From contig JAQWQF010000017.1 in assembly GCA_029244935.1 (NCBI GenBank), positions 1 to 55,739 of the forward strand: a stretch of 55,739 nt of DNA. Reading direction: 5' to 3'. Under the pieces are notes generated by a model that worked only from the letters and a program-made list of their open reading frames with translations, was not told where the DNA came from and ran no database searches. Shown here one piece after another: positions 15,196 to 27,515 of this stretch. This stretch comes from Methylophilaceae bacterium. Lineage in GTDB: Bacteria > Pseudomonadota > Gammaproteobacteria > Burkholderiales > Methylophilaceae. Made by a program: the position numbers and the translations under genes. Numbering within the stretch: the first letter of the stretch is position 1; the number at the start of each line of letters is the position of its first letter.

Positions 15196-16119
15196 ATGAA
15201 TATTTTACTTACTGGTTCGACTGGCATGGTGGGAAGAAATATTTTAGAACATCAAAATAGTAGTGCCTATAAAATATTTAATCCCACAAGCTCCGAACTG
15301 AATTTGTTAGATATGGGATCAGTTAATCATTTTTTAAAAAACCACAAGCTCGATTTAATAATACATGCGGCTGGGCATGTAGGTGGAATAGAGGCAAACA
15401 TTTCTAATCCTGCAAAGTTTTTAACTGACAATATGCTTATGGGAATAAATATTATAAATGCATCTAGGTGTGCTGGTATTCAAAAATTTATTAATATTGC
15501 GAGCTCTTGTATGTACCCTGTGAATGCTAAGAATCCATTATCAGAGGAACAAATTTTAGATGGTAAATTGGAACCTACAAATGAAGGGTATGCGCTAGCT
15601 AAAATAGCCGCCACTAAATTATGTGACTATATATCTAAGGAGGATCCTTCTTTAAAGTATAAAACAGTTATACCTTGCAATATGTATGGAAAATACGATA
15701 ATTTTAATCCACAATCATCACATATGATTGCCGCTGTGATAAAAAAGATTCACGATGCAAAATCCCAAAAAAAACAATCAGTTGATATTTGGGGAGACGG
15801 AAAAGCTAGACGAGAATTTATGTATGCCGCTGATTTTGCTGATTTTATTTTTTATTCCATTAAGAACTTTGAAAAAATGCCTAATATCATGAATGTTGGT
15901 ATTGGGCATGATTACTCAGTCGAGGATTATTACATCAGTATTTCAAAAATATTAAATTATGAAGGTAGTTTTAATTATGAAATTAATAAACCTGTCGGTA
16001 TGCCACAAAAGTTATTGGATTCAAATAGGCTTCTTAAATTTGGGTGGACCTATAAAACAGATCTTGATAATGGTATTCGATATACCTACGATCAATTTTT
16101 TAATAAGGGTGATAGATGA
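15196..16119 (+). CDS. colC: GDP-colitose / GDP-fucose synthase family reductase (ColC-like)
   Basis: An SDR of 307 residues related to GDP-fucose synthase. It has GSTGMVG (residues 7-13), the HAAGHVGGIEAN block, SSCMYP, and Y132/K136 in GYALAKIAATKLCDY. Family members epimerise at C5 (and C3 for fucose) and reduce C4. Because it is followed by colD with a 4-base overlap, the likely substrate is GDP-4-keto-3,6-dideoxymannose and the product GDP-L-colitose. If the colD product did not act, it could work as GDP-fucose synthase, so the symbol rests on context and on remembered similarity to ColC. Confidence 0.78.
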   Translation: MNILLTGSTGMVGRNILEHQNSSAYKIFNPTSSELNLLDMGSVNHFLKNHKLDLIIHAAGHVGGIEANISNPAKFLTDNMLMGINIINASRCAGIQKFINIASSCMYPVNAKNPLSEEQILDGKLEPTNEGYALAKIAATKLCDYISKEDPSLKYKTVIPCNMYGKYDNFNPQSSHMIAAVIKKIHDAKSQKKQSVDIWGDGKARREFMYAADFADFIFYSIKNFEKMPNIMNVGIGHDYSVEDYYISISKILNYEGSFNYEINKPVGMPQKLLDSNRLLKFGWTYKTDLDNGIRYTYDQFFNKGDR

Positions 16120-17282
16120 GTAATTATCCATTAGCAACAAGCTCATGGGGTGATGAGGAAATAAAGGCGATTCAAAAAGTCGTTAAAGATGACAGTTACA
16201 CCATGGGTAAAAAGGTTAGAGCTTGCGAGAATGAATTATCATCATTCTTAAATAGAAAGTATTCCGTCATGGTAAATTCAGGCTCAGCTGCAAATTTATT
16301 AGCAATTGCTTCATTATTTTATACAAAAAATCCAATGTTAAGAAAGGGGGATGAAGTTATTGTGCCTGCAGTTTCGTGGTCAACTACATATTTTCCATTA
16401 CAGCAGTTTGGCTTGAAATTAAAATTTGTTGATATTGATCTAAGCACACTAAACTATAATTTAGACGATTTAAAGACAGCAATAAGTAATAAAACAAAGC
16501 TGCTGATGGTAGTAAATCTTTTAGGCAATCCAAATGAATTCAATGTAATTGAAGAAATCATAGATGATAAAGATATTGTTATGGTTGAAGATAATTGCGA
16601 ATCCCTGGGTGCTGAATACCAGGGAAGACAGGCTGGAACCTTTGGACTTCTAGGTACATTTTCGTCTTTCTTCTCTCATCATATATCCACTATGGAAGGA
16701 GGTTTTGTTACTACTGATGACGAAGAGCTCTACCATATACTTATATCATTAAGAGCACATGGCTGGACAAGAGATCTCCCAAAGATAAATATGGTTTCCA
16801 ATAAATCTGATGATTCGTTTGAGGAATCCTTTAGATTTATATTGCCAGGTTTTAATGTGCGCCCTCTTGAGATGAGTGGAGCAATAGGTATCGAACAGAT
16901 TAAAAAACTGAAAAAATTTATAGAGCAAAGAAGAGCTAATGCTAGGTTATTTATAGAGCTATTTACAGATCACCCTAATTTTTTAATACAAAAAGATTCT
17001 TGTGCGAGCTCATGGTTCGGTTTTGCATTGACTATTAAACCAAAATCTAATTTAGATAGAAAAGTGGTATTAAAGAAGTTATTAGATAATTCGATTGAGT
17101 TTAGGCCTATTGTTGGGGGAAACTTTGTAAAAAATGAAGTCATGAAATATATAGATTACGATATACATAAGGAGCTAATAAACGCTGACTATATTGATAA
17201 TAATGGTTTTTTTGTTGGAAATAGTCATATAAATTTATCAAATGAAATCAATAACTTACATAAAGTTCTAGGAGTAAAATAA
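16116..17282 (+). CDS. colD: GDP-4-keto-6-deoxy-D-mannose 3-dehydratase ColD
   Basis: A PLP enzyme of the DegT/DnrJ/EryC1/StrS fold that removes the C3 hydroxyl of GDP-4-keto-6-deoxymannose instead of transaminating C4. The PLP-lysine position is replaced by histidine: SSFFSHHISTMEGG puts H188 where aminotransferases have lysine, as in characterised E. coli ColD. D159 in VEDNCES matches the pyridine-binding aspartate. The 388-residue length and blocks such as VNSGSAANLL, PAVSWSTTYFPLQQ and LRAHGWTRDLP fit ColD very well from memory. It overlaps the colC-like gene by 4 bases. With ManC and Gmd it completes GDP-colitose synthesis. Confidence 0.9.
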   Translation: MSNYPLATSSWGDEEIKAIQKVVKDDSYTMGKKVRACENELSSFLNRKYSVMVNSGSAANLLAIASLFYTKNPMLRKGDEVIVPAVSWSTTYFPLQQFGLKLKFVDIDLSTLNYNLDDLKTAISNKTKLLMVVNLLGNPNEFNVIEEIIDDKDIVMVEDNCESLGAEYQGRQAGTFGLLGTFSSFFSHHISTMEGGFVTTDDEELYHILISLRAHGWTRDLPKINMVSNKSDDSFEESFRFILPGFNVRPLEMSGAIGIEQIKKLKKFIEQRRANARLFIELFTDHPNFLIQKDSCASSWFGFALTIKPKSNLDRKVVLKKLLDNSIEFRPIVGGNFVKNEVMKYIDYDIHKELINADYIDNNGFFVGNSHINLSNEINNLHKVLGVK

Positions 17283-17284
17283 AT

Positions 17285-18364
17285 TTGCCTAGTGATTTTG
17301 GAATTTTACTTGTTACCAAAAATACATACTCAATGGTTGATGAGTGGTTTAGCCTGTCTGATTATTCAAATATTCCTATTTTAAATATTGATTTAAATAG
17401 TGACTATAAGAATAAATCCTATGGAAAGAATTTATGTAAAGAGAAGGGCATTAATTTTCTGGATTGCGACGGAACAGAAATGCAAAAAAATATAAATCAA
17501 GCTGTAGATTTTTTTAAGGAAAAATATGATATTTCCTGGGTTTTGTATATGCATCACGATGCATTTCCAATGCATAAGGACACACTAGATAAATTAAATA
17601 ATTTGCTCAGGAAATCACAGGCACTTACTAATTTTGGTGTTATTGGTTTTAACATATATCACGACAAGTTTGATCTAGATAAATTTGATCCCAATATAAA
17701 GCAGCTGATGACAACAGCAAGAGCTCCACTTGAGCTAGGTAATGGTTACTACAATAGAAGTATTGAATCAAGGGTTGATTATTCGAAATTTAATTTTAAA
17801 CCATATGCTGTCGAATCAGTAATGTGGAGTACAGCAATGATTAACTATCATCAATTTAAAAAGCATATAAAAATTGATGAAAAATTTAATTTTTTCCATT
17901 CGTGGGATGATATAGCTTTTCAATTTTTAGATAATAATATTTATAATGTTGTAATTCCACATATTACTTTTGGGCATGACCAATCACTAAAAATTAAGCA
18001 TAAAATTCCATTTAGCTCTCCCAATAGCAATAAAAATATTGTCTCTAAGCTCTATGGAAGATCTGATCATTTATCAATTTGGAAAGAAAAATGGGGGTTT
18101 ACTTATAGCCTTTCTAAGCAATTACTAGGGGGCGATAGTTTTATTAATAGTAATGGAAATATTAATAAACTTTTAATAATTATTTCAAGATTATTTAATA
18201 TTGATTTTTCTTCATCATTAGAAACTGTAGCTAGAAAAACCTTTAATACATACATCAAAAAAAATCCTTACAGAAAAAAAACATTAATTGATGCATTCAA
18301 AGACCATGATCCCAAAAGTGGCCCCTTAAAATATTTTGATATCGGACTAGATGATGGAATTTAA
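17285..18364 (+). CDS. Putative glycosyltransferase, family not recognised
   Basis: A 359-residue protein starting with TTG at 17285, two bases after colD, behind a GGAG. The N-terminal part has alternating strands (FGILLVTKNTYSMVDEWF, then ISWVLYMHHDAFPMH). The HHDAFP segment is placed like the metal-binding D-x-D of GT-A glycosyltransferases. A later FFHSWDDIAFQF resembles the ED/catalytic-base region of GT2 enzymes. There is no signal peptide or membrane helix. Position between sugar-nucleotide genes and an ABC flippase supports a glycosyltransferase, possibly the colitosyltransferase, but I cannot name the family. Confidence 0.6.
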   Translation: MPSDFGILLVTKNTYSMVDEWFSLSDYSNIPILNIDLNSDYKNKSYGKNLCKEKGINFLDCDGTEMQKNINQAVDFFKEKYDISWVLYMHHDAFPMHKDTLDKLNNLLRKSQALTNFGVIGFNIYHDKFDLDKFDPNIKQLMTTARAPLELGNGYYNRSIESRVDYSKFNFKPYAVESVMWSTAMINYHQFKKHIKIDEKFNFFHSWDDIAFQFLDNNIYNVVIPHITFGHDQSLKIKHKIPFSSPNSNKNIVSKLYGRSDHLSIWKEKWGFTYSLSKQLLGGDSFINSNGNINKLLIIISRLFNIDFSSSLETVARKTFNTYIKKNPYRKKTLIDAFKDHDPKSGPLKYFDIGLDDGI

Positions 18365-22233: not shown

Positions 22234-23271
22234 ATGGAAAACAACTTATTTAAAAGAAACAATGAAAGTAACCAAACCTATGTAATTGCCGAAGCAGGAT
22301 TAAATCACAATGGCTCAATTGATATTGCAAAAAAACTTATAGATCTTGCTGCCAAGGCTGGTGCTGATGCTGTTAAATTTCAAAAAAGAACAGTAGGTAA
22401 ACTTGCTGTAAAAGCTACATTAGATGCTAAAGACGATAGATTTCCAGAGTTTGGAAATACTTATAGAGAAATACGGGAGCATCTTGAATTTAATATGTCT
22501 CAATATAAAGTAATTAAAGATTATGCAGAGGGTTTAGGCTTAGATTTTTTATGTACTGCATTTGATCCTGAGGCAGTTGATTTTTTAGAGAGTCTTGATA
22601 TTAAAATCTATAAATTAGCTAGTCATAGTGCAACCAATATTGAGCTATTAGAGTATATGGCTCAAACAGGTAAGCAGGCAATTTTATCAACTGGTATGGC
22701 AGAGTTGGCTGAAGTGGATACTGCCGTAAAGATATTTAAGGAATTTAATACACCACTATTACTTCTACATTGTGTTTCAGCTTATCCAACACCACTTGAC
22801 GAATGTAATCTAAGGATGATCGATGTTCTTAAGGATAGGTTTGGTCTTCCTGTTGGTTATTCTGGCCACGAGCTGGGCTACCTGCCAACACTAACAGCTG
22901 TTTCTATGGGGGCTGTTGCAATAGAAAGACACTATACACTTGATAATAATATGACAGGATTTGATCATAAAATGTCTCTTAATCCAATAGATTTCATTGC
23001 GATGGTAAAAGGAATTAGGGATATAGAAAGAATTAAAGGGACTGGTGAAAAGAATGTGAGTGAAACTGAATGGATCACTAGAAATAAGTATCACGTATCT
23101 ATTGCCTCGGCTAATAAGATAGTTTCAGGTACTTTATTAACCGACGATATGATTGTTTATCGCAATCCAGGAACTGGGATACCTGCTAAGGATGCTCATC
23201 GTATTCTTGGAAAAAAAGCTTTGCGTGACATTCCTGCTGATGAATTATTAAGATTTGAAATGTTCGAATGA
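22234..23271 (+). CDS. NeuB-family nonulosonic acid synthase
   Basis: Condenses phosphoenolpyruvate with an aldose (ManNAc or a related hexosamine in known members) to a nine-carbon 2-keto-3-deoxy acid. The TIM barrel starts with YVIAEAGLNHNGSIDIA and DAVKFQKR. Conserved LASHSATN and STGMAELAEV strands follow, as does the metal region YSGHELGY. The C-terminal antifreeze-like SAF domain is complete (RNPGTGIPAKDAHRILGKKA). At 345 residues it is normal NeuB length. Whether it makes neuraminate, legionaminate, pseudaminate or something else cannot be told, because no NeuC, LegB/C/G or PseB/C/G/H homologue is in the window. Confidence 0.88.
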   Translation: MENNLFKRNNESNQTYVIAEAGLNHNGSIDIAKKLIDLAAKAGADAVKFQKRTVGKLAVKATLDAKDDRFPEFGNTYREIREHLEFNMSQYKVIKDYAEGLGLDFLCTAFDPEAVDFLESLDIKIYKLASHSATNIELLEYMAQTGKQAILSTGMAELAEVDTAVKIFKEFNTPLLLLHCVSAYPTPLDECNLRMIDVLKDRFGLPVGYSGHELGYLPTLTAVSMGAVAIERHYTLDNNMTGFDHKMSLNPIDFIAMVKGIRDIERIKGTGEKNVSETEWITRNKYHVSIASANKIVSGTLLTDDMIVYRNPGTGIPAKDAHRILGKKALRDIPADELLRFEMFE

Positions 23272-24656
23272 GTATAAAAAAACCAATCGTATCGGTCATT
23301 TTGAGAACGTTTAATGAAGAGCGTTGGATTGCCCATTCTCTAAATGCGATTTTTACTCAAGAATTTGATAATTTTGAAATTATCATCGTTGATAATAATA
23401 GTTCTGATCATACTCTTGAAATTGTAAAAAGATTTCCCATAAAAAAAATAGTTATGATTGATAAATTTCTTCCTGGAAAAGCACTTAATGATGGTATTCG
23501 AGAATCTTCAGGAGAGTTTATTGTATGTATCTCAGCACACTGTATTCCCAAAGATAAATACTGGTTGAAGAACCTTCACAAACATTTTAGTGGAAATAAA
23601 AAATATGCTGGTGTCTACGGGCGACAGTTACCTTTATCTTATACAAGTGACGCTGATAAAAGAGATTTACTAATTACATTTGGCCAAGACCAAAAAATTC
23701 AAGTAAAGGATTATTTTTTTCATAATGCTAACAGTATGATTCCTAGAGATATTTGGGAAAAATTCCCATTCGAGGAAACAGCTACTAATATTGAAGACAG
23801 GATTTGGGGTAAGTCAGTTATTGATGCTGGCTATCAGATCGTTTATGACCCTGAGGCCTCAGTTTATCATTATCATGGACTTCATCAGCATGCACAATCT
23901 TCTCCTAGAGCAAAGGGGATTGCAAAAATTTTAAATAAAATCGATAAGGAGAGTATCGGAGATCTTCCAAAATCCTTAAAGCCGCAGAATGCAAATTTTT
24001 CAGTTGTTTTGCCAGTATTAGGCCAGCATAGTGTTGTTAAAGGAATTGATTTTCTTCAAAGAGCAATAGATAACTTAGGAGAAGTAGAATATATCAATAA
24101 TATATATGTGGTTACTAATGATGAATTAGTAAAAAAAATTGCTAAAAAAAATGATATTCAGGTTATTGATCGTCCAAAATACATGCAGGATCCAAATATT
24201 CGTTTAGAGGAAGTCCTTAAATATGCATTATTACGAATTGAGGAATTCGATGATTTTCCTGAAGCTATTGTTTATATAAATTATTTGTACCCATTTCGAC
24301 CAACTAATTTAATTGATGAGTTAATTGTTGAACTTCAATATAAAGGCTTAGATTCTGTATTTTCAAGTTTTGTGGATTATGGTAACTACTGGGAGGAAGA
24401 TGCTAATGGAGATTTTATTAAGGTTGGCGATATCCTAGAACCAAGAGAAAATAAACATCCTCTTCATCGAGCTCTTTATGGTGTTGGCTGTGTTACGCTC
24501 TCCCATGCAATTCGTAAAGGAAATTTAACTCTAGGAAAAATTGGTATTTTACCTCTAGATAACCTTCTTTACTCCTTAAGGTTGGACAAAGAAACCCCTA
24601 ACGAGATAATTTTGAGTGCTATAAAGACTTTTGAGAAGAATAAAAATAATGTATAA
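23268..24656 (+). CDS. Fusion: GT2 glycosyltransferase plus degenerate NeuA-like cytidylyltransferase domain
   Basis: A 462-residue two-domain protein. Residues 1-235 are a GT2 glycosyltransferase: SVILRTFNEERWI, IIIVDNNSSDHT, CISAHCIP at the usual D-x-D position, NIEDRIWGK and VYHYHGLHQH. Residues 243-455 follow the CMP-sugar synthetase fold order: FSVVLPVLGQH in place of the P-loop-like IPARxGSK, then a YLYPFRPTNLIDELI strand like the TxPLR region, and LDSVFSSFVD. The nucleotide-binding R/K/G signature is lost, so the second domain probably does not transfer CMP. It may instead bind the activated nonulosonate. It sits between the NeuB gene and the enolase-like gene, overlapping both. Confidence 0.75.
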   Translation: MSIKKPIVSVILRTFNEERWIAHSLNAIFTQEFDNFEIIIVDNNSSDHTLEIVKRFPIKKIVMIDKFLPGKALNDGIRESSGEFIVCISAHCIPKDKYWLKNLHKHFSGNKKYAGVYGRQLPLSYTSDADKRDLLITFGQDQKIQVKDYFFHNANSMIPRDIWEKFPFEETATNIEDRIWGKSVIDAGYQIVYDPEASVYHYHGLHQHAQSSPRAKGIAKILNKIDKESIGDLPKSLKPQNANFSVVLPVLGQHSVVKGIDFLQRAIDNLGEVEYINNIYVVTNDELVKKIAKKNDIQVIDRPKYMQDPNIRLEEVLKYALLRIEEFDDFPEAIVYINYLYPFRPTNLIDELIVELQYKGLDSVFSSFVDYGNYWEEDANGDFIKVGDILEPRENKHPLHRALYGVGCVTLSHAIRKGNLTLGKIGILPLDNLLYSLRLDKETPNEIILSAIKTFEKNKNNV

Positions 24657-25800
24657 AAATATTAATGAAAAAATTACTAAAATAGAAGGATTTGCCTTAT
24701 CTTCACCCTATGGAGATGGGAAATCACTCGGCCAGCCCCTAGGTGTTAAGTCTGTTGGCTTTATAAAGATATATAGCGATTCAGATAAATATGGCTTAGG
24801 TGAAACTTATTCAGGAGTTTATGCGCCAGAGTTAATTCAACCAATAGCTTTATTTTTAGAAAAATATTTTTTAGGGAGACACGTGGGAGATGATCTTCCT
24901 TTTGAGGAGATTAAGAATATTCCATTTATTGGAGGTGGGGGAATTATACAAAGTGTTATTAGCGCAATTGAAATAGCTATTTGGGACTTAAGAGGTAAAA
25001 TTTTAGATAAGCCTATATCGCATTTAATAAGTAACAATAGAAGAGATACTAGCCCAGTATATGCTAGTAGCGGTACGGCAGCATTTTCTCCTGATGAAAT
25101 TAAACGTGATGTTGATGACATCACTAAACTTGGATATTCGGCATACAAGATGAGAGTTGGATATCAAGATTGGAATATTGACGTTAAGAGAGTAGAAGCT
25201 GCATGGGAGGCCTTATCAGGTAATGACTTAATGGTCGATGCAATTATGGGAACAATCCGTCCAGCCTGGGACGCTGAAAAAGCCATAAATGCAGCAAAAG
25301 ATCTATCTAAATTCAATTTGAGATGGTTAGAAGAACCAACCCATCCTGATAAAATTAAAGATCTCGCGAGAGTAAAAAGTTGTAATATTATTCCTATTGC
25401 TGCAGGGGAGGCATATACAAGTGAAAGAGATTTCGATTCAATTTTTCATTTCGAGGCAGTAGATATTCTACAATTCGACGCAACACATTCTGGTGGAATT
25501 AATTATTGTATGGATTTAGCAATGCAGGCTAAAGAACGAGGCTTGGGCAGTGCATTACATGTATGGGGGAGTGCAGCGGCAATTGCTGCTAATGCGCAGA
25601 TAGCATTAGCACAGCCAAGTATTGATATACTCGAAATACCTATGGTTAAATTGGAATTAACTGACCGAATGTGGGTAGAAAAACCAATAATAAAGGATGG
25701 GGTATGGCACTCTACAAATACTCCGGGATTAGGAGTTGTTCTCGATGAAGATTTAATAAATGAATATAGCTTTAAAGAGAATAGTGGTTATAGGATTTAG
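24649..25800 (+). CDS. Enolase-superfamily enzyme (mandelate racemase/muconate lactonizing type)
   Basis: A 383-residue (beta/alpha)7-beta barrel enzyme. Counting from the ATG at 24649, the catalytic set is complete: K167-M-R169 on the second strand, metal ligands D197 (MVDAIMG), E228 (WLEEP) and E254 (AAGEAYT), and a D277/H304 dyad (FDATHSGG, LHVWGS). This is the mandelate-racemase subgroup, whose members dehydrate or epimerise acid sugars. The usual asparagine after the first ligand (DAN) is isoleucine here. The gene overlaps the fusion gene by 8 bases and lies between NeuB- and NeuA-family genes, so it probably acts on an acid sugar of that pathway; the substrate is unknown. Confidence 0.85.
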   Translation: MYKNINEKITKIEGFALSSPYGDGKSLGQPLGVKSVGFIKIYSDSDKYGLGETYSGVYAPELIQPIALFLEKYFLGRHVGDDLPFEEIKNIPFIGGGGIIQSVISAIEIAIWDLRGKILDKPISHLISNNRRDTSPVYASSGTAAFSPDEIKRDVDDITKLGYSAYKMRVGYQDWNIDVKRVEAAWEALSGNDLMVDAIMGTIRPAWDAEKAINAAKDLSKFNLRWLEEPTHPDKIKDLARVKSCNIIPIAAGEAYTSERDFDSIFHFEAVDILQFDATHSGGINYCMDLAMQAKERGLGSALHVWGSAAAIAANAQIALAQPSIDILEIPMVKLELTDRMWVEKPIIKDGVWHSTNTPGLGVVLDEDLINEYSFKENSGYRI

Positions 25801-25803
25801 AAA

Positions 25804-26805
25804 TTGAATAACCATAAAAAAACATTGTCAAAAAAAGAAGTTTATGTTGCATGTGACTTTTCTCTGCCTTTACGAATGTTTAATTTGCCTGAAATTTATG
25901 CAAAGAAAATTAAACAAACCTTCCCATATATAAATATTATCTTTATCTCAAAAGACCTAAATAAGTTGAGCTTAGAAGAGCATGAGATGTTAAAAGATGT
26001 CACTATTTACTGGGGTAATTTATTTTCAACAGACATGCTTAAGCTGATGCCAAAATTAGAATGGATTCATTTTGGTTCTGTTGGTGTTGAAAAAGCAAAT
26101 TCAGAAGATGTAAGGAAAAAAAATATTAAAATTACAAATAGTATTAATATTGTAGAAGATGCTATGACTACCTCTGCAATAGCAGCAATGACTAACTTAG
26201 CTAGGGGTATATTTAGAGCTGAAAAATTAAGAACGTTAAAAAAATTGAATCGACAAGGCTGGGATTTATTTGGTGAGCATATCCATGATTTTTTTGGTGG
26301 ACATGCATTGATAGTCGGATATGGTGCTGTAGGGCGTAAATTAGCCAAAATATGTAAGGCATTTGATATGAAAGTTTCTGCAGTAAATCGATCACACGAG
26401 CCTGATAGCAATGTTGATCAATTTTATAAGTTAAACAATGTAACATCAGCTTTAAAGGATGTAGATTTTGTTATTAATTTATTGCCATTAACAAATGAAA
26501 CTGAACAATTTTTCTCAGAAAATTTTTTTAAAAAAATGAAATCAACATCCTTTTTTATAAATATTGGTAGAGGAGAGACTGTTGTTGAAAAGGATTTAAT
26601 AATTGCACTTAATAATAGAACTATTAGCGCTGCTGCATTAGATGTATTTTTTAAAGAACCTTTGTCATTAGATTCGCCACTATGGAATGTTGATAATGCA
26701 ATTATCACTCCACATGTTGCAGGATATACGAATCAATACTGGCCAAAACAAACAGATCTTTTTATAAAATTACTTAGCAATCATCTAGGAAAGCCTATCA
26801 AATGA
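25804..26805 (+). CDS. D-isomer-specific 2-hydroxyacid dehydrogenase
   Basis: A 333-residue NAD-dependent dehydrogenase starting with TTG at 25804, 3 bases after the enolase-like gene. The Rossmann motif is GYGAVGR (in HALIVGYGAVGRKLAK). The catalytic arginine is in INIGRGETVVE, the glutamate in DVFFKEPL and the histidine in TPHVAGYT, so the enzyme should be active. It interconverts a 2-keto acid and a D-2-hydroxy acid. It overlaps neuA by 4 bases. Standing next to an acid-sugar dehydratase-like enzyme, it may reduce or oxidise that product, but the substrate is not identifiable. Confidence 0.87.
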   Translation: MNNHKKTLSKKEVYVACDFSLPLRMFNLPEIYAKKIKQTFPYINIIFISKDLNKLSLEEHEMLKDVTIYWGNLFSTDMLKLMPKLEWIHFGSVGVEKANSEDVRKKNIKITNSINIVEDAMTTSAIAAMTNLARGIFRAEKLRTLKKLNRQGWDLFGEHIHDFFGGHALIVGYGAVGRKLAKICKAFDMKVSAVNRSHEPDSNVDQFYKLNNVTSALKDVDFVINLLPLTNETEQFFSENFFKKMKSTSFFINIGRGETVVEKDLIIALNNRTISAAALDVFFKEPLSLDSPLWNVDNAIITPHVAGYTNQYWPKQTDLFIKLLSNHLGKPIK

Positions 26806-27515
26806 TTAATACTAAAATATTAGGAGTTATTCCAGCAAGAGCTGGATCAAAAGGAATTCCAAATAAAAATATTATAGAAATTGGTGATCAGCCTTTAATA
26901 AAGTATACGATTGATGCAGCATTGGGCTCGACGATGATTACTGACTGTATTGTATCAACAGACAGTAATAATATAGCTAGCCTAGCAGAATCACTCGGGT
27001 CTTCAGCCCCTTTTATTAGACCTAAAAATTTGTCTGATGATAAAGCTCTGTCACTTCCAGTAATTCAGCATGCGGTTAATTTTATGGAAAAAAAACATGT
27101 CATTCGGTATGACGCAGTAATTATGTTACAGCCAACAACACCTTTAAGGACCTCGGAAGATATTGATAAATCCTTATCTACTCTTATGTCTGAAAAATTA
27201 GATTCAGTAATCAGTGTTGTAGAGGTAGAAGGTAATCATCCATTGAGAATGAAAAGGATTGTTAACAATCGTTTAGTAAATTATATTGATCAAGGACATG
27301 AGGATATGAGGCCTAGGCAAGAACTGCCTCAAGTCTATATTAGAAATGGTGCAATTTATGCGACTCTTCGAGATGTATTAATTGATGGTGATAGCTTTGT
27401 AGGAGAGAATTCTTATCCATATGTTATGAGTAAAGAAAAATCTATAAACATAGATACATTAAGTGACCTTTACCTTGCCAAAACATATATAAATAATGCA
27501 AAAAATAAATTATGA
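26802..27515 (+). CDS. neuA: CMP-N-acylneuraminate (nonulosonate) cytidylyltransferase
   Basis: Activates a nonulosonic acid with CTP to the CMP-sugar. The signature VIPARAGSKGIPNKNI is intact at the N-terminus. It is followed by the QPTTPLRTSEDI strand, VISVVEVEGNHP, and RPRQELPQVYIRNGAIYAT, all typical of NeuA-type enzymes. At 237 residues it is a single-domain form. This intact enzyme contrasts with the degenerate copy fused to a GT2 at 23268-24656. Its stop overlaps a mini-ORF start (ATGA). Confidence 0.92.
   Translation: MINTKILGVIPARAGSKGIPNKNIIEIGDQPLIKYTIDAALGSTMITDCIVSTDSNNIASLAESLGSSAPFIRPKNLSDDKALSLPVIQHAVNFMEKKHVIRYDAVIMLQPTTPLRTSEDIDKSLSTLMSEKLDSVISVVEVEGNHPLRMKRIVNNRLVNYIDQGHEDMRPRQELPQVYIRNGAIYATLRDVLIDGDSFVGENSYPYVMSKEKSINIDTLSDLYLAKTYINNAKNKL

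Follow-up and report, generated by a model that had tools for sequence, protein, structure and literature searches.

Which acid sugar would be made by a bacterium that keeps a sialic acid-type synthase and cytidylyltransferase in one gene group with an enolase-superfamily enzyme and a 2-hydroxyacid dehydrogenase? The question is raised by five adjacent genes at positions 22234 to 27515 of contig JAQWQF010000017.1 from a Methylophilaceae bacterium (assembly GCA_029244935.1), a stretch of 55,739 nucleotides that was analyzed at its full length and is called here the window; it is contig C7 of a 1.25 Mb assembly of 32 contigs that is 95.25% complete. We give about even chances to the reading that the five genes form one horizontally scattered pathway unit for a predicted cytidine monophosphate (CMP)-activated acid sugar of the 3-deoxy-2-ulosonic type that lacks an N-acetyl-hexosamine core. 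By the sequence features tested, the gene set is not that of sialic acid (Neu), pseudaminic acid (Pse) or 3-deoxy-D-manno-octulosonic acid (Kdo) synthesis, legionaminic acid (Leg) having been tested in part. In the literature reached by our search, which took in few subscription journals, this gene set is not described, a weak hint of its novelty.

An earlier reading of the sequence (the original prediction) had placed here a NeuB-type synthase, a GT2 fusion protein, an enolase-superfamily enzyme (hereafter ENO), a D-2-hydroxyacid dehydrogenase (D2H) and NeuA. All five open reading frames (ORFs) were recovered on the forward strand at the same coordinates, and their family matches agree with these names. 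Neighbors overlap by 4 to 8 bp (ENO being counted from its ATG) or are 3 bp apart. None of the five proteins reaches an NCBIfam cut-off.

The ENO gene is rare, and its linkage is part of the evidence for a single unit. At E 1e-40, ENO was found in 1 of 170 genomes of the family and in 1 of 398 genomes sampled from the phylum, in both cases its own genome only, while a sample of the order searched at E 1e-30 gave matches in 21 of 399, the best besides the own genome having an E-value of 4.3e-39 at 33% identity. Tallies around other carriers, with the carrier counted, were 2/297 in the order of genome G767, 1/136 in the order of G765, 1/285 in the phylum of G764 and 1/294 in the phylum of G766. 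A search of viral contigs guided by active-site stretches of the window ENO yielded five contigs, two of which (L042 and L043) have an identical ORF listing through the cassette and are counted as one locus. A scan of species genomes with a cassette alignment uses two short peptide patterns, and the ten loci that it returned are a lower bound; six of them hold the cassette (L047 from Omnitrophota, L048 from SAR116, L049 from Elusimicrobiota, L050 from Pelagibacteraceae, L051 from an alphaproteobacterium and L056 from Chloroflexi) and four do not (L052, L053, L054 and L055). Together with a further locus from the order of G767 (L069), this makes 12 distinct loci: the window, the six from the scan, L069 and four viral ones. 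The window ENO is 34-55% identical to the other cassette ENOs.

In all 11 loci where the DNA continues beyond ENO (L056 ends inside it), the same type of dehydrogenase, here called D2H-A, lies directly downstream. The spacing is -4 bp in 8 of the 10 cases measured, with 3 bp in the window and 12 bp in L048 (L042 and L043 are both counted here, and L047 and L049, whose ORF starts are ambiguous, are left out). As a control, a D2H-like ORF was seen near 4 of 20 other ENO genes, within flanks of up to about 1.5 kb. NeuA is present in 12/12 loci, although in L069 it lies at a distance of about 3 kb and in L045 two ORFs intervene; GT2 is present in 11 of the 12, being encoded on the other strand in L049 and L050 and unseen in the 7.9 kb of L048; and a phosphoenolpyruvate (PEP)-condensing synthase is present in 10/12. 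Pairwise protein distances over 10 loci (L043, L049 and L056 left out) are correlated at 0.879 for ENO and D2H, 0.859 for ENO and NeuA, and 0.848 for D2H and NeuA, and for each pair 0 of 2000 permutations gave a value as high. The co-occurrence check called for by the original prediction thus came out in its favor: across very distant lineages, ENO and the dehydrogenase gene occur in linkage with NeuA, joined by a synthase in 10 of the 12 loci.

The phage origin of L044, L042 and L046 is supported by clamp-loader, HNH or endolysin families, and L045 showed no phage hallmark of these types in a family search. No confirmed relative was obtained by scanning viral contigs with ENO, the GT2 fusion or D2H as single proteins, or by a fragment scan, and a viral scan with an alignment that included general enolase relatives returned general ones only. 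Matches of ENO, the GT2 fusion and D2H to plasmids and annotated phages by tblastn were below 60% identity or absent, and those inspected were distant. In the SAR116 locus, D2H and NeuA are separated by a fumarylacetoacetase-family gene (L048:1986-2810; PF01557, 123.6 bits); this family includes enzymes that use 2-keto-3-deoxy acids as substrates.

ENO is encoded at positions 24649 to 25800 of the forward strand (from the ATG used here; a longer form starts at a TTG at 24631) and matches PF13378 with 163.2 bits. The mandelate racemase subgroup of the enolase superfamily is defined by a K-x-R/K motif, D-E-E metal ligands and a D-H pair, a pattern found in the window ENO, and the catalytic residues listed in the original prediction (K167, R169, D197, E228, E254, D277 and H304) are invariant in 11 aligned cassette ENOs. 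These 11 proteins form one clade (support 100/99), apart from 18 relatives from the order and two plasmid enolase relatives, in a tree built from a small sample picked by similarity from which two of 20 order relatives (L007 and L013) were left out; L052 to L055 form its sister group when the tree is midpoint-rooted. The best match of ENO in both sequence and fold (structure model with a mean predicted local distance difference test score, pLDDT, of 77.4) is 5olc, a 3,6-anhydro-D-galactonate cycloisomerase that forms a 2-keto-3-deoxy acid. ENO shares the fold and the catalytic residue pattern with 5olc and other mandelate-racemase-type sugar-acid enzymes, but it is only about 26% identical to 5olc, belongs to a clade of its own and stands in a biosynthetic locus.

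The adjacent dehydrogenase gene (positions 25804 to 26805, forward strand; PF02826, 161.9 bits) encodes a protein with the nicotinamide adenine dinucleotide-binding domain and the Arg-Glu-His set of D-2-hydroxyacid dehydrogenases, the predicted R, E and H being R256, E285 and H304; E285 is kept in 9 of 10 type A sequences. These ten sequences form one clade (99/99) and all share D18 and H89. A second dehydrogenase, type B, forms another clade (100/99) that comprises proteins from 14 viral loci and the NeuA-fused forms of L050 and L051. A plasmid locus of Thalassovita gelatinovora (L027, 1-10544) carries GT2, NeuA-like and phosphoglycerate-dehydrogenase-like genes near kdsA, a KdsB-type gene, an SDR gene and a gluconolactonase-like gene; its dehydrogenase was considered as a cassette type and rejected, as in the tree it groups with other relatives and belongs to neither A nor B.

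The synthase gene (positions 22234 to 23271, forward strand) encodes a NeuB-family PEP-condensing enzyme (PF03102, 266.6 bits) with a SAF domain in which Asn311 replaces the characteristic arginine. It scores 324.1 bits with an N-acetylneuraminate synthase model whose cut-off is 399.65 and 247 bits with the PseI model (cut-off 340.25), and is below the cut-offs of both TIGR03569 and TIGR03586. Three forms of synthase occupy this slot in the cassettes: a long NeuB (window, L047 and, on the opposite strand, L049), a short NeuB without the SAF domain (L042, L044, L046, L056 and L069), and a relative of 3-deoxy-D-arabino-heptulosonate 7-phosphate (DAHP) synthase with an altered motif (L050 and L051). 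The long and the short cassette NeuBs form separate clades (support 100/99 and 100/100, respectively), both outside four PseI proteins and outside the clade with three NeuC-linked NeuBs, in a tree in which several deep branches are unresolved and for which the tree tool gave a long-branch warning.

The barrel of these enzymes is conserved. Over 12 positions compared with meningococcal NeuB (Asn74, Thr110, Phe112, Glu234 and Phe288 left out, and part of the numbering being provisional), 11 are identical in all eight cassette NeuBs, and the twelfth (Asn184) is Ser in the cassette proteins and likewise in 7/8 references. The SAF domain is where they depart. The position of Arg314 of the meningococcal enzyme is Asn in all three long cassette NeuBs, and the domain with its arginine is absent from all five short ones, while Arg occupies this position in 8/8 annotated references that have the region (four NeuB and four PseI) and, in alignments read by eye, in the solved NmNeuB, PseI and SpsE. 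In the published account, Arg314 is the only SAF-domain residue in the active site and contacts N-acetylmannosamine, and the enzyme is inactive when it is replaced (R314A) (PMC6795526). This change argues, on sequence grounds, against an N-acetyl-hexosamine substrate. The separate phylogenetic position and the altered arginine favor the earlier suggestion that this NeuB may condense a different aldose.

In L050 and L051, the synthase slot is filled by a type I-beta DAHP-synthase relative that falls just under the TIGR01361 cut-off (261.1 and 246 bits against 267.75), and type II DAHP synthases are encoded elsewhere in the same genomes (677 and 705 bits). The KPRTS of ordinary DAHP synthases (G764, G766) is changed to KPCT or KPAT in these relatives; the KPRT motif binds erythrose 4-phosphate.

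Between the synthase and ENO lies a gene (positions 23268 to 24656, forward strand) in which a GT2 glycosyltransferase (PF00535) is joined to a cytidylyltransferase-like domain that has no NeuA loop. The GT2 assignment of the original prediction stands, and the kinship of the other half to cytidylyltransferases is seen only indirectly, through an Omnitrophota ORF and a Chloroflexi homolog. On its own, the C-terminal half matches no Pfam family at E 0.001; it resembles the Omnitrophota ORF (L047:12938-13681; 24% over 189 residues, E 8e-15), which matches PF02348 weakly (25.7 bits), and the fusion has a homolog in the Chloroflexi locus L056 (34% over 431 residues). Because the NeuA loop is absent by eye from this half, it is probably inactive as a cytidylyltransferase. 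A structure model of the fusion was unusable (mean pLDDT 41.9). The last gene of the five (positions 26802 to 27515, forward strand) encodes a NeuA-like cytidylyltransferase (PF02348, 84.6 bits) that is intact, as had been predicted, with its loop ARAGSKGIPNKN present. In L069, one ORF next to the cassette NeuA (L069:5538-7103) combines cytidylyltransferase and aldo-keto reductase domains.

To what extent the unit depends on ENO can be judged from a search that was independent of it. With the short NeuB as query, 59 viral loci were found, which merge at 95% identity into 39 clusters; 14 of the 59 lie on contigs with lengths from 100 to 548 kb. By best match, 54 of these loci have a type B dehydrogenase, 4 have ENO with type A, none has both and one, a 5.7 kb contig, has neither, the type B assignment being made by tree for 14 loci and by best match only for the other 40. 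The 39 clusters include a dehydrogenase in 38, a NeuA-like gene in 33, GT2 in 31 and ENO in 3, and the commonest gene order is dehydrogenase, NeuA, NeuB, GT2 (28/59). In several viral loci other genes intervene, and some NeuA-like ORFs are short, at about 180 residues. In ten viral loci fetched for their general enolase genes (L032 to L041), none of the other cassette genes sought was present. Since 54 of the 59 loci have type B and no ENO, the core is a synthase, a dehydrogenase, NeuA and GT2, of which ENO with type A is a variant; ENO and D2H-A seem to stand in for the type B dehydrogenase. The weight that the original prediction had placed on ENO was therefore too great, and ENO as the core of the system was dropped after this search.

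How could such a set of enzymes act? The NeuB-like synthase would condense PEP with a non-N-acylated aldehyde, which is proposed because of the lost SAF arginine, the forms without SAF domain and the DAHP-synthase form. Dehydratases of the enolase superfamily convert alpha,beta-dihydroxy acids to beta-deoxy alpha-keto acids, and D-2-hydroxyacid dehydrogenases reduce such keto acids. Given this family chemistry, the adjacency of the two genes and their parallel distances, ENO would dehydrate an alpha,beta-dihydroxy acid and D2H-A would then reduce the alpha-keto acid so formed, so that the pair would strip one hydroxyl beside the acid group. The acid acted on may be a carboxylate at the far end, either of the aldehyde substrate or of the product after condensation, giving a diacid; this is the simplest site because NeuB needs the aldehyde and NeuA needs the 2-keto end, and a second, far-end carboxylate as the site of ENO and D2H action is nonetheless a tentative assignment, less likely than not. 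NeuA would activate the 2-keto end with cytidine triphosphate, and GT2 would transfer the sugar, as their family membership suggests. A reading in which ENO would run in reverse, hydrating its substrate to a 3-hydroxy acid, was discarded for thermodynamic reasons.

Several observations weigh against this scheme and against the single pathway unit. Because ENO was the basis for choosing the 12 loci, the linkage evidence rests on its neighbors; only 4 of the 59 loci selected by NeuB have ENO, all of them already known (L042, L043, L044 and L046), and joint inheritance of whole loci would give the same distance correlations. Dehydrogenase, NeuA and GT2 occur together in 26/39 clusters, only 9/39 have the dehydrogenase no more than 50 bp from NeuB, and no synthase was seen in the stretches of L045 and L048. 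The two dehydrogenase types are not strictly exclusive, because L050 and L051 carry both, with type B fused to NeuA. The loss of the SAF arginine is not special to the cassette either, because the SAF region is also absent from two other annotated NeuB-family proteins (L077 and L078) and the NeuB on contig C28 of the same assembly has Ile at this position. Finally, nothing was identified that would supply a free aldehydic acid. Within the region 1862-7474 of L078, on a Methylomagnum plasmid, the SAF-less gene has as neighbors a HAD phosphatase gene, transketolase-type halves, a class III aminotransferase gene and an SDR gene, another unfamiliar context of NeuB.

The alternative that survives best, although we consider it unlikely, is that the core is a plain non-N-acylated ulosonate resembling keto-deoxynonulosonic acid, and that ENO and D2H make a separate small hydroxy-acid substituent of lactyl or glyceryl type. 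D-2-hydroxyacid dehydrogenases commonly yield small hydroxy acids, and such substituents are known on sugars of this type; yet no ligase or acyltransferase was recognized by eye as a constant part of the loci, and the fusion of the type B dehydrogenase to NeuA in L050 and L051 points to the sugar itself.

Less probable again is a reversed order, in which the dehydrogenase would reduce a 2-keto-3-hydroxy acid and ENO would dehydrate the product to a 3-deoxy-2-keto acid for NeuA, with NeuB serving another product. Both steps would run downhill, and Paenibacillus has a related ENO-D2H pair next to NanA-like lyase genes, whose enzymes would there take a 3-deoxy-2-keto acid as substrate. NeuB-type enzymes, however, already make a 3-deoxy-2-keto acid, and a synthase is present in 10/12 loci. 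In this Paenibacillus pectinilyticus locus (L053), ENO and D2H are adjacent and both are sisters of the cassette forms under midpoint rooting. It differs from the cassette in the genes beside the pair, which encode a NanA-like lyase (278.3 against 281 bits), a YhcH/NanQ-like protein (93.3 against 160 bits, anomerase model) and a BNR sialidase-like protein; no NeuB or NeuA was matched there, and its D2H lacks D18 and H89. In Chloroflexi, locus L052 has ENO with a NanA-like gene (176.5 against 281 bits) and NanE (287 against 189), and no D2H was matched. These loci hint that the ENO-D2H pair serves ulosonic acid metabolism in both directions, the models being mostly under their cut-offs and the Paenibacillus D2H being without D18 and H89.

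Less likely than either, and very improbable, is the explanation that the product is ordinary sialic, legionaminic or pseudaminic acid, with precursors encoded elsewhere and the extra genes incidental. The NeuB and NeuA families do match, the former with its barrel residues and the latter as a CMP transferase, and the 95% complete assembly holds one Epimerase_2 gene, on contig C28. The cassette NeuB differs from the sialic acid pathway NeuC-NeuB-NeuA in lying outside the NeuC-linked clade and lacking the SAF arginine; no NeuC-type gene is among the window ORFs, that Epimerase_2 gene being the only one in the assembly; and ENO, D2H and a GT2 gene are constant partners in the cassette. The pseudaminic and legionaminic pathways likewise use members of these two families (PseI/LegI and PseF/LegF), whereas the window proteins remain under the PseI cut-off, as given above, and the PseF cut-off (158.5 bits for NeuA against 205.7); hexosamine precursor genes are not in the window, and PseG was not found in the assembly, its best match having 21.5 bits against a cut-off of 153.55. 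Of the LegB, LegC and LegG precursor genes, the search covered Epimerase_2 only. The linkage of ENO and D2H over several phyla also speaks against incidental genes. The contrary findings named in the original prediction, complete precursor genes elsewhere and no conserved linkage, were not encountered: the linkage is conserved, NeuC-like sequence occurs only on C28 and PseG is below its cut-off, LegB and LegC being outside the model search.

Kdo and DAHP synthesis offer a parallel for the synthases, since KdsA and DAHP synthase are PEP-condensing barrels without SAF and a DAHP-synthase relative occurs in L050 and L051. The cassettes differ in the change of KPRT to KPCT or KPAT, in a NeuA-type rather than a KdsB-type transferase, and in the presence of ENO and D2H. 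The window synthase belongs to the NeuB family, and KdsB models give at most 55.6 bits against cut-offs of at least 155.2.

That ENO and D2H are sugar-acid catabolism genes landed in the locus by chance is just as improbable: the nearest named relatives of ENO are indeed sugar-acid dehydratases and cycloisomerases, and relatives occur in sugar-acid loci of haloarchaeal plasmids, but in viral contigs and in several phyla, with ENO identities of 34-55%, the pair is still found next to NeuA genes.

The polysaccharide locus that holds the cassette also has rml, gmd, fcl, DegT and transferase genes, most of them named by eye. DegT proteins of the window (16116-17282) and of L042 (6311-7453), L044 (7273-8448) and L045 (2041-3192) have His at the usual position of the pyridoxal phosphate-binding lysine, a feature of ColD-type dehydratases. 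Their genes have fcl-like and, in some cases, gmd-like neighbors, and the cassette may be accompanied by a colitose-like route in the window and in these viral loci. The neighboring ORF17 (positions 17285 to 18364, forward strand) belongs to no known family, Pfam and NCBIfam searches giving no match, and is a possible accessory part: it also lies near NeuA, dehydrogenase and NeuB in viral loci, and relatives at more than 50 bits occur in 37 of the 59 loci found from the short NeuB.

Three other NeuB-family matches occur in the assembly, on contigs C28, C14 and C18, those of C28 and C14 being 29% identical to the window NeuB and 37% identical over 134 residues, respectively. Contig C28 (L029, L030) resembles a second version of the surface-sugar locus of the window (2402-31932), with six stretches 66-76% identical; it begins or ends with a tdh-like gene and has HAD and Gfo/Idh-like genes at the opposite end, and the contig may come from a relative that was co-binned. 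The C14 locus (L031, 8796-13480) encodes a NeuB-domain protein whose C-terminal part is cupin-like by eye, its gene lying between those for an RfbH-like aminotransferase and a thiamine-diphosphate-type enzyme, and is another unfamiliar NeuB locus in the same assembly.

Returning to the proposed pathway unit, we suggest with clear reserve, as a possibility less likely than not, that its CMP-activated acid sugar belongs to a new class, probably that of 3-deoxy-ulosaric (di-acid) sugars lacking N-acyl groups, the genes for which would circulate between phages and bacterial surface-sugar islands. The set defining such a class would be an interchangeable PEP-condensing synthase, either the type B dehydrogenase or type A with ENO, a NeuA relative, and a GT2 enzyme using the CMP donor. 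If the reading of one pathway unit is right, some annotations of "sialic acid synthesis" in environmental bacteria and phages mislead, and a sugar of another chemical type is made. That a DAHP-synthase relative takes the place of NeuB, and ENO with another dehydrogenase that of one dehydrogenase, gives directly testable predictions of the substrate, and phages with the pathway may use it to alter the glycans of their hosts or virions.

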